From Accumulibacter sp. (lineage in GTDB: Bacteria > Pseudomonadota > Gammaproteobacteria > Burkholderiales > Rhodocyclaceae), in assembly GCA_024235715.1 (NCBI GenBank), contig JACKLW010000005.1, positions 1,080,032 through 1,144,031 on the forward strand: DNA of 64,000 bases, written 5' to 3'. Made by a program: the position numbers and the translations under genes. Each line of letters starts with the position of its first letter. Position 1 is the stretch's first letter. Positions 2,740-5,283 of this stretch are shown here, in pieces. The notes below the pieces were generated by a model that did no database searches, was not told the origin of the DNA, and was given only the letters and a program-made list of their open reading frames with translations.

Positions 2740-3078
2740 TAGCCGCAGCCGCGATGCCGCCGCGGCGCGCGTCGGGCGGTCACTTTGGAGGAGCGCCGCA
2801 TGTTCGGATTGTTCAAGTCGCCGCCGTTTGACGATGCGCAGCTCGGTGAACTGCAGCGCAGTGGCGGCCTCTGGCGGGGTTCGATCGGCGCGCTTGATGG
2901 CACGCGCGTCCCGCTGGCGATAAGCGGCTCGCGCAAGGAACCCGATGCGCAAGCCCTGCGAGCCGCTCGCGAAGTGGCAGGCCGATTCGCTGGTTGGCGC
3001 CCGATCATCGAGAAGGCCTTGTTCGACCACTACCAGCCCTACGCTGAAGCCCTGGCCGACGACGACTCACCTGCAGAC

Positions 3079-3088
3079 GGCTGCCCTG
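3079..3088. repeat. Target site duplication, left copy
   Basis: GGCTGCCCTG directly precedes the left inverted repeat and recurs exactly at 4996-5005 after the right inverted repeat. Ten bases suits ISAs1-family insertions (8-10 bp). Confidence 0.9.
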
Positions 3089-3106
3089 CACGGTAAATTT
3101 GTTCTC
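3089..3106 (+). repeat. IS left terminal inverted repeat
   Basis: CACGGTAAATTTGTTCTC matches the reverse complement of 4978-4995 at 14 of 18 positions, with an ATTTGT core. Confidence 0.8.
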
Positions 3107-3115
3107 GTGCCGGGA

Positions 3116-4902
3116 TCAAGGTGATACGTGACCTGTGGAATTTTTGGTCATGCGCAGGTAGTCGAAGACCAATCGGATGTTGCGGTTCAGGTGGCGCATT
3201 TTTTCGGCGAGGCTGGTTTTGCCATCGGAGAAGTGATGCAGGATACCGACGGCGAAGCGGCGCAGGCGTGACATGTTGTCGGGTCCGTGACCGGTGCGAA
3301 TACGACTGCGGTCTTCGTCGTAGTTCCAGTCGATGACGTAGTGACAGCGGTTCTCTATCGACCAATGGCCGCGATTGATGGCGAGGATCTGCTGCGGGTT
3401 GGCCTGCTCTGGAAGGCGACTGGTAATTCCGAGAGCGGTTTCGTGCGTCCGCTTGCCGCTCTTCTTGTGCAGCACTTCACGCTCGATCAAGAACACCTGG
3501 CCGACCTGCGGGAAGTCGAGATAGGCGTTGAGGGCATTGCTGCACCAAATACTTCGAGTCTCGATCCGACCATGGTCAGGTGGCGAAACCGCCACGTAGT
3601 CTGCCTCCTTCCGATCGTGGAAAAGGAGCGCGATATCGGCGTGCAGTGTCGGCTGATTGCCTTTGACCGTGAAGTGATAGTGCGCCTTGCGCTCTACCAG
3701 GTAGGTCGCCAGCTTGCGCTGTGTCAGCAGCGCGTCGGCGGTGATGTCCTTGCCCTGGATATCGATCGCATCGAGCAGGGGCATGAACATCCCGATTTCA
3801 TTGGTCTGCTTGAGCTCGTCCCTGCCATTTACGGGCAAGGTGCCGACTTTTTTTGGGTGTGGCAGACGCCGGTCTGATGCCCGACCACGCTCATGATGTG
3901 CGTTTGCTGCCCGTGCTCGTCATGAGCATTGCGCATGGTCTTGCCGTCGACCGCCAGGCTGGGGTCGTCTTGAGCATAGGCCTCGTTCCACTGCTGACAC
4001 GCTTGGTCGAGTGCCGTCGGATCGACGCGGATCAGGACGTCACGAATGATGAACTCACTGGGTACGCGGTAAACGCCCTTCTCGCGACGACAGCGGAAAC
4101 GCTCGCGTGCTTTCGGTGTGAGGTCTTTGGCCCACCCGGCGATGGCTTTGTAGCCCTGCATTCCGCACAACGCCGCCGCCGTGGCGATGGCCAGCACGGC
4201 CGGAAGCGGATGGCGCCTCCCTTGCGCGCGACGCGGGTCGGTGATGCCGGCAAAGAAGTCTGGAAGCGTGCGCATCTGTTCGGCGGTGAGCATCATCCTG
4301 GGCACTCCTGTGCGATAGCGGGGGTTGAGTATCGAGCGGGAAAGTTGGCCGCGAGCGTCCGCCTGCAAGGGGCGAACAAAGAAGACTTTGGGCGACGCCG
4401 GCTGGGCGCTGTAGCCTTCTCGGGTGCGGCGAAAGCCTTGCGTCAGCCCCAGGGGCGTCCAGTTCGCGGCTCGATAGACGGTCCCCTGGAAGCGCGATGG
4501 ATCGACAAAGGTCTCCAGCAGTAACAGCGGCTTCCCAAAATGGGCCTGCCAGTCCACTGCGATCCGTCGCTCACACAGCGAGAGCACCTTGGAGCCGAGG
4601 TTGGAGTAATGCCAGTCGGGAAGAATCAGAAAGCGACTGTTGTTGGCGACCAGGCCCAGGCGATCGTACTGATGCCGATAGTCCCAGCCGATCCAGCGGT
4701 CACGAACGCCGCATTTCCAGGCCGCCGCAGAGAAACTCAGCAAGGCCGTCCACTTTTCGCCGCAGGTGGCCACGTACCAGAGCGTGTGCCCGATCTTCGC
4801 CAGGTCGCCCAGGTAGTGATGCTCTGCCATCAACTCCCGATAGCGAGCCTCTTCGCTCTTGCCCACCAGGCGAACACGCAATGCATCAAGAACGCTTTCC
4901 AT
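3116..4902 (-). CDS. DUF4338 (DruA-like)-ISAs1 transposase, two frames joined by a -1 shift
   Basis: The upstream frame starts at ATG 4902 (MESVLDALRVRLVGK). Residues ~1-190 are a DUF4338 domain (AEHHYLG, WIGWDYRHQ, RFLILPDWHY, LLETFVDPSRFQGT). From ~residue 205 an ISAs1 DDE transposase begins (LPDFFAGITDPRR; first Asp in SLAVDGKTMRN). This frame stops at 3829. The rest reads on in the -1 frame: second Asp in ITADALLTQRK, Glu in GHWSIENR, ending at 3116. The switch lies in a seven-A run (3848-3854) forming A AAA AAG. A stem-loop at 3821-3840 begins 6 nt after the heptamer. Joined length would be 595 residues. It could be programmed frameshifting, decay or a lost base in the read. Confidence 0.85.
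3821..3854 (-). promoter_or_regulatory. Candidate programmed -1 frameshift signal in the transposase
   Basis: On the minus strand the heptamer A AAA AAG is in the zero frame (3853-3847). After a 6-nt spacer comes a hairpin: CCTTGCC, loop CGTAAAT, GGCAGG (3840-3821). A AAA AAG is the heptamer used by E. coli dnaX. The arrangement is right for -1 frameshifting, but loss of one A from a run of eight would give the same sequence. Confidence 0.45.
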
Positions 4903-4977
4903 GCGCCATTTATACGGACTTTCCGAGCGAATGTCCAGGGGGGAAACTAACTGCTTGATTGCCCGTGCATTGGCTGA

Positions 4978-4995
4978 GAGGACAAATCCACCCTG
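4978..4995 (-). repeat. IS right terminal inverted repeat
   Basis: Read inward on the minus strand it is CAGGGTGGATTTGTCCTC, the partner of 3089-3106. Confidence 0.8.
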
Positions 4996-5005
4996 GGCTG
5001 CCCTG
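4996..5005. repeat. Target site duplication, right copy
   Basis: GGCTGCCCTG is identical to 3079-3088 and directly follows the right inverted repeat. Reading frame of the interrupted gene resumes through it. Confidence 0.9.
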
Positions 5006-5283
5006 CCACGCCTCTTGCGCGTGCCAGCGAAGTATGGCCGCTTGTCACGCTGGTCTACGTTGCGGTGACCCCGCTGGATGACGCACTGACCACTGAACTC
5101 GGCTACATGACGAGCTGGGACGAGGAACACACGCTCGGCGCCCGCTTTCAGGGCGACAGGTTCATCGAGCTTTGCGGCAGCGTCTTGCCGCCGTAGCTGT
5201 GACGCCCGGCGACACCCGCTCGACCGGCAAGTGCAGGGGAGGTATGTCACAGCGACTCCTGCCTCCTGGCCAGGCGCGCATGA

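Follow-up and report, generated by a model that had tools for sequence, protein, structure and literature searches.

A stretch of 64,000 nucleotides from Accumulibacter sp. (assembly GCA_024235715.1, contig JACKLW010000005.1, positions 1,080,032 to 1,144,031), here called the window, carries at positions 3089 to 4995 an insertion sequence (IS) assigned to the ISAs1 family, with a DruA domain (DUF4338, PF14236) at the N-terminus of its transposase. This domain looks like a GNAT enzyme of the type of Mom from phage Mu, and the transposase is encoded in two open reading frames (ORFs) joined at a slippery heptamer. On balance, it is likely that the Mom-like GNAT domain acyl-modifies DNA in step with transposition, and that the full transposase arises by minority −1 frameshifting. 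The features of the element are listed below, ACC003 being an Accumulibacter metagenome-assembled genome (MAG).

3089..4995, minus strand: whole DruA-ISAs1 insertion sequence, 1907 base pairs (bp), from its paired ends and matching ends in 23 complete ACC003 copies
3079..3088, unstranded: target duplication GGCTGCCCTG, 10 bp, left copy, from the sequence
4996..5005, unstranded: target duplication GGCTGCCCTG, 10 bp, right copy, from the sequence
3089..3106, unstranded: terminal repeat CACGGTAAATTTGTTCTC at the 3' end of the transposase gene, from the sequence
4978..4995, unstranded: terminal repeat CAGGGTGGATTTGTCCTC (minus-strand reading) on the upstream side of the transposase gene, from the sequence
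3829..4902, minus strand: zero-frame ORF of 357 amino acids (aa), ATG at 4902, with DruA, DDE_Tnp_1_assoc and the start of the DDE domain
4432..4881, minus strand: PF14236 DruA (DUF4338), apparent Mom-like GNAT domain, residues 8-157, from a Pfam match
3988..4260, minus strand: PF13808 DDE_Tnp_1_assoc, residues 215-305, from a Pfam match
3847..3853, minus strand: slippery heptamer A_AAA_AAG inside CAA AAA AAG, seven A, from the sequence
3116..3846, minus strand: −1-frame ORF with the remaining DDE domain, 243 codons past the shift, from the sequence

The terminal repeats are imperfect, with 14 of 18 bases identical by a count made by eye, and the duplication is present on both sides, in agreement with an earlier note on this DNA that had placed an ISAs1 element with terminal repeats and a 10-bp duplication here. 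The N-terminal DUF4338 domain named in that note was recovered by profile search within the 357-aa ORF (PF14236, E 3.6e-25), as was DDE_Tnp_1_assoc (PF13808, E 1.1e-20), while the downstream ORF (3116-3838) matches PF01609 (E 2.5e-7). The note's DDE ISAs1 match is likewise upheld by NF033564, which is divided between the frames: the −1-frame ORF matches profile positions 119-314 above the cut-off (E 5.4e-41), and the zero-frame ORF matches positions 1-115 under the cut-off (E 1.3e-13). Target duplications in the ISAs1 family measure 8-10 bp, and its members usually have a single transposase ORF, a trait from which the window element departs with two ORFs in −1 register. Because the transposase profile and the ends fit ISAs1, it is filed as a variant of this family, with DruA/DUF4338 at the transposase N-terminus. 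Only transposase frames are found within 3089-4995, with no DruE helicase or other Dru neighbours.

The case for a Mom-like enzyme begins with profile comparison. An alignment (A4) was made of 27 transposon-type domains, that is, domains fused to or beside IS transposases, with the IS1634-type domain (L068) left out. Against a profile of 12 phage Moms, hhalign matched A4 at 97.4%. As a control, nine ordinary GNATs of the window's genome reached 0.5% against A4 and 0.4% against Mom, with a control alignment of 108 columns in place of the 230 of the Mom alignment. In addition, PHROG 1384 ('Mom-like DNA modification protein') was matched by all 27 sampled domains at E-values up to 1 (best 4e-7; window domain 0.0069). 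Predicted models have a GNAT fold like that of Mom, and Mu Mom (PDB 8bv8, PF25680) ranked first for both of them in VIA-align. By profile, the transposon-type domain is thus kin to Mom.

Thirteen columns are invariant among the 12 Moms, and an alignment of three families pairs many of the Mom residues with residues of the domain. The paired columns, with retention in A4 in brackets, are His27 with Mom His48 (26/27), Tyr28 with Tyr49 (22/27), Ser102 with Ser114 (27/27), Thr129 with Ser136 (26/27), Gly138 with Gly146 (27/27), Tyr141 with Tyr149 (26/27), Ala143 with Ala151 (27/27), Asn145 with Asn153 (25/27) and Gly150 with Gly158 (27/27). Asp132 pairs with Mom Asp139, which, together with Tyr149, we take to be a catalytic residue of Mom. 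Mom Ser114, which is Ser in nine of the 12 Moms and Thr in three, corresponds to the residue changed to Ala in the solved 'inactive mutant S124A', the numbering being offset by 10. A pairing of DruA Arg88 with Mom Arg101 was dropped, as the two fall in different columns by both hhalign and MAFFT. A sequence search of PDB did not reach Mom, returning two plant defensin/thionin chains (best E 0.056) that were taken as chance.

Several results weigh against this reading. The window domain matches the Pfam Mom family PF25680 only under the curated cut-off (E 0.048; 13.8 bits against 27.1), and A4 against Mu Mom alone gives 4.5% in hhalign, so that the 97.4% requires the wider Mom profile. In Foldseek, Mom is fourth for the window model and, for the better model, lies outside the first 50 with SpeG on top; the Z gap between Mom and other GNATs is about 1. 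The Asp132 column is Asp in 20 of 27 domains, Glu in five and Ala or Gln in two, so activity may be different or lost in some domains, and the invariant Arg101 of Mom has no counterpart in one column. The domain is also dispensable for ISAs1: matches to the family occur in 46 of the 323 class genomes surveyed (see below), and a DruA fusion was seen in four of these (G000, G493, G504 and G505).

Taken together, profile, fold and conserved residues make the transposon-type DruA domain look like a Mom-type GNAT enzyme, suggesting modification rather than recognition of DNA. It shares with Mu Mom the His-Tyr, Ser, Gly, Tyr, Ala, Asn and Gly columns, but differs in that Asp139 is not always kept and Arg101 has no one-column match. 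Mom is a separate gene of Mu, a transposing phage, whereas the transposon-type domain is either part of an IS transposase or encoded next to one. According to the accessible text on Mom, an acyl group is moved from acyl-CoA to adenine N6 (PMC7824862) and Mu DNA gains resistance to restriction (PMC6483171).

The second part of the argument concerns the frame break. The earlier note had described a single coding region of 595 residues; the length holds, as 352 residues of the zero frame plus 243 of the −1 frame, but the region is not one open frame. The zero frame of the window element stops 5 codons past the slippery site, and across elements with seven A the stop lies 1-7 codons past the heptamer. 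A run of seven A occurs at 24 of the 25 ACC003 sites, L030 having six, and also in the window, L026, L027, L028, L032, L034, G505, G504 and G622/G614, making ten lineages including ACC003; L036, with the same shift by translation, stands outside this count. Among nine elements compared, with lengths counted up to 230 codons, eight have a −1-frame ORF of at least 205 codons, and L180 has one of 90. Changes in this ORF are in excess at third codon positions in 21 of 21 pairs from seven elements (0.19, 0.11 and 0.60 per codon position for the window and L027), a pattern of purifying selection. In L183 and L190, which are ISAs1 elements of the same genus without DruA, the region is read in one frame and the A7 site is absent; the site is also absent from the less related DruA-ISAs1 elements L121 and L136. 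L136 (Thiodictyon plasmid pTs417, 3902-5723) has a different frame break further downstream, its annotated products being an 'ISAs1 family transposase' and a hypothetical protein.

Judged from sequence, the heptamer and intact −1-frame ORF kept in diverged relatives constitute a conserved −1 frameshift site. This conclusion has to accommodate L182, which is 63% identical (residues 12-356) and has eight A and one open frame, as well as the finding of no significant RNA fold as a frameshift stimulator (z −0.93 in one analysis and −1.5 to +1.9 in another); a stimulatory RNA structure is not required in every known case of frameshifting. Were the break instead a product of decay or of homopolymer sequencing error, the element would be dead or the break unreal. 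Homopolymer indels are a common error type, and the six A of L030 and eight of L182 would fit such an origin, but the recurrence of seven A at nearly all ACC003 sites and in nine further lineages, the purifying selection on the −1-frame ORF and the recent movement of copies make it very improbable. A pseudogene reading of the window element was rejected on the same three grounds.

In the programmed −1 frameshifting of IS1 and IS3, an A_AAA_AAG heptamer likewise joins an upstream DNA-binding part to a downstream catalytic part, although in the window the shift falls inside the DDE domain. Normal decoding would give a short protein with the GNAT and DNA-binding region and without the full DDE core, and a minority −1 shift, which could come about by ribosomal or by transcriptional slippage, would yield the 595-residue transposase; as with IS1 and IS3, this would hold transposition at a low level. 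In the accessible text of a 2016 review, IS1, IS3, IS5 and IS630 are named for such frameshifting and ISAs1 is not (PMC5009743), and that of a 2012 survey including ISAs1 members names the IS3 and IS5 groups (PMC3281130). A conserved frameshift site would thus be added to a family unnamed in that connection in the review text.

Evidence that elements of this kind move comes from ACC003, which by shared contig coordinates is the same as G612 and is of the window's genus. It contains about 25 copies that are 95-97% identical across all or part of the 357 residues. An exact 10-bp duplication flanks 21 of the 23 complete copies, these 21 occupying 20 distinct sites; of the remaining two, one has a 9-bp duplication and one has none. 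Since so many further copies occur in one Accumulibacter MAG, mostly with exact duplications, the DruA-ISAs1 arrangement is not due to chance, and close relatives of the window element have, by this comparison, been recently mobile. In the window's genome, the element described here is the sole intact copy, accompanied on a different contig by a decayed one of about 80% identity. Conservation of the DruA part is close to that of the transposase (73% against 77% amino acid identity between the window and L027), and changes are in excess at third codon positions in 28 of 28 pairs, so the DruA part is used. Flank preference over the 20 sites is weak, with A at −10 in 14 of 20 and, in the two positions directly preceding the duplication, C in 12 and G in 13, and DNA targeting via site choice was rejected given 20 distinct sites with no strong motif. 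As a separate observation, a host ORF starting at 2785 (2785-3096) appears, by eye across one duplication copy, to be resumed past the element (4996-5197) with a stop near 5197; the element seems to have interrupted a host gene, whose function is unknown.

The genome survey covered the phylum (299 genomes) and the class (323 genomes) of the window's genome, which is in both sets, and PF14236 was found in 16 and 15 genomes, respectively. Forty regions with a DruA domain were read frame by frame, the fragments G462:C123, C32, C182, C232, G522 and G472 lying outside this reading. In 19 of the 40, the domain has a transposase as its partner, either by fusion or as a same-strand neighbour, so that the domain is widely common to transposons and defence-type genes, as the earlier note had supposed. 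Five regions are NurA-HerA operons (NurA by Pfam in L110 and L112, by eye in the others), one is a Druantia-like set (L111, by likeness to L134), four encode long DruA proteins of PADLOC DruA1 type, and 11 are ungrouped, being fragments, contig ends, decayed or without an adjacent transposase. Nine partners were tested by profile, that of L116 giving only a sub-threshold DDE_Tnp_1 match; those of L079, L114, L118, L139, L141 and L191 were named by eye. NCBIfam names the partners as IS66 (L083, L122), ISKra4 (L066), IS4 (L067), IS1634 (L068) and ISAs1 (L121). In L069 and L119, the domain is fused to an IS4 transposase, the link being a single reading frame. With five named families (ISAs1, IS66, IS4/Tn5-like, ISKra4 and IS1634), the domain, as far as these readings go, recurs beside unrelated transposases.

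At loci of the IS66 and ISKra4 types, the domain is encoded by a gene of its own next to that of the transposase. For IS66 it lies inside the mobile unit, as seen in three identical 2719-bp copies in the window's genome (G000 C5:553193-555911, equal to L083 2194-4912; L130; L131) with 22-bp perfect terminal repeats and, in two of them, an 8-bp duplication, the third being ended by a contig end. Each contains tnpC and a DruA gene, with no tnpA or tnpB seen inside. For ISKra4 and IS1634, the domain is placed beside the transposase only, as positions relative to the element ends lie outside the mapping. In viruses, no window-type domain was found in IMG/VR by peptide patterns or in a phage collection at E 0.01; IS66-type DruA copies occur in a few IMG/VR contigs. 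Four of the contigs filed there as viral (L138, L139, L141 and L142) carry IS66-type DruA elements by eye, in L142 in the order tnpB, DruA, tnpC.

In a tree of 34 rows, 26 transposon-type domains split from eight Druantia/NurA-type domains at 100/100 (this first tree left out L079, too short at 107 residues, the partial L070 and L078, and L018, a near-copy of L008). Eleven ISAs1 domains and the contig-cut L073 group at 100/99, and the four IS66 rows need three changes; the imperfect correspondence between transposase partners and tree order suggests swapping. Druantia DruA (PF14236; PADLOC PDLC00001/2) belongs to the same Pfam family as the window domain, and the transposon and Druantia/NurA types match by profile at 97.0% over 111 columns, corresponding to the first two thirds of the transposon-type domain. 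However, the window domain lies in a separate clade, and the Druantia/NurA type lacks the Mom signal, with 0.7% against Mom in hhalign and none of nine proteins matching the Mom PHROG. Because its profile matches both sides while those two do not match each other, the transposon form, which retains Mom residues, bridges the Mom and Druantia/NurA types. The comparison of IS and Druantia DUF4338 proposed in the earlier note therefore yields a clear split, but not the direction of the recruitment it envisaged: with 12 Moms as outgroup, the transposon side comes together with support of only 69/79 and a warning of long branches, and exchange between transposons and Druantia could have run either way.

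Going by the sequence evidence, the domain most likely serves to acyl-modify DNA in connection with transposition. It would bind acyl-CoA and acyl-modify a base, by analogy with Mom an adenine, in transposase-bound DNA, a site of action suggested because the Mom-like domain is tied to the transposase. Candidates for the marked DNA are the ends of the element, the intermediate of transposition and the newly formed junction. The most likely gain would be that an element just excised or just entered escapes host nucleases and restriction, and a second possible gain would be a mark that limits re-cutting or self-insertion. A wider proposal, plausible although held with less than even confidence, is that of 'self-marking' transposons, in which a Mom-like enzyme, carried by DDE insertion sequences unrelated to one another, acylates bases in DNA during transposition as a shield against host defence or a label of ends and target; on that view, Druantia DruA would be related to a transposon DNA-modification enzyme but with a remodelled Mom-type active site.

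A GNAT could also control transposition by acylating a protein, such as its own transposase or a host factor, or an RNA, such as a tRNA, in place of DNA. The substrates of most GNATs are small molecules or proteins, and GNATs of the SpeG, Nat and AAC types score near Mom and lead in Foldseek; nevertheless, the far stronger profile match to Mom than to ordinary GNATs, and DNA being presumably the substrate common to all partner families, make this unlikely. The earlier note had suggested a DNA-recognition or targeting module, and a non-catalytic role of this kind would suit the N-terminal fusion ahead of the DDE_Tnp_1_assoc region as well as the stand-alone versions of the domain, whose approximately 100 extra N-terminal residues resemble a winged helix by eye. 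As put, the suggestion is unsupported, since sequence profile, predicted fold and conserved residues favour a Mom-like GNAT; the top VIA-align match is an enzyme, single polar residues are kept, and the 20 distinct duplications with weak flank preference argue against targeting, rendering a recognition module rather improbable.

It is quite improbable, finally, that the domain is a host-helping passenger carried as IS cargo, such as an anti-phage component like Druantia DruA. Related domains do occur in Druantia-like loci (L134, L135) and DruA-NurA-HerA operons (L110, L112), and the IS66-type L083 has a weak PADLOC DruA1 match (E 1e-6), the window protein having no PADLOC match. Against this stand the fusion of the domain to transposases of two families, the fully supported split from the Druantia/NurA type, and the content of both end-mapped elements of the window's genome, which contain only the transposase and the DruA part.

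If acyl modification by the transposon-type domain is correct, insertion sequences would possess a DNA-modifying activity of their own, coupled directly to the transposase, which would add a new level to the conflict between mobile DNA and host defence. This reading would also provide a testable biochemical activity for DUF4338/DruA, a Pfam family known only via its defence link, and a lead for Druantia DruA. In the literature searched, no link of DUF4338 with transposases or Mom was found, the accessible portions of DUF4338 texts concerning defence genes; those of three DruA texts make no such link (PMC13316683, PMC8565338, PMC12774648), and no paper joining Druantia with GNAT was found. A prior description of fused DruA-ISAs1 is possible, ISfinder and most subscription papers being beyond the search. 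Given the Pfam family name 'Druantia protein DruA' and the weak PADLOC DruA1 match, the mobile-element proteins could be mistaken for defence genes. Two annotated transposon-type records on Thiodictyon plasmids are named 'ISAs1 family transposase' and 'DUF4338 domain-containing protein'.

Further arrangements were observed around related domains. An operon of DruA, NurA and a HerA/FtsK-type ATPase recurs in L064, L110, L112 and L113, and is a candidate defence or repair system in a neighbourhood unlike that of Druantia. In L065 (1825-8296), a DruA-NurA-HerA-like set adjoins TniQ and TniB genes (Pfam), and a Tn7/Tn5053-type transposon may carry the set. The DruA proteins of L075, L076 and L124 exceed 1000 aa, with weak PADLOC matches to SspF/DndF in the C-terminal half, a layout for which DUF4338-DndF fusions in the accessible text of one paper are a precedent (PMC10853773). 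Lastly, repeated copies of a DruA domain occur in the Accumulibacter loci L008 (1802-3952), L015, L018, L025, L187 and L188, and in several loci of the L008 group the domain is followed by a DDE-like protein (IPDPRDP.KRRHKL...) of an unnamed family.
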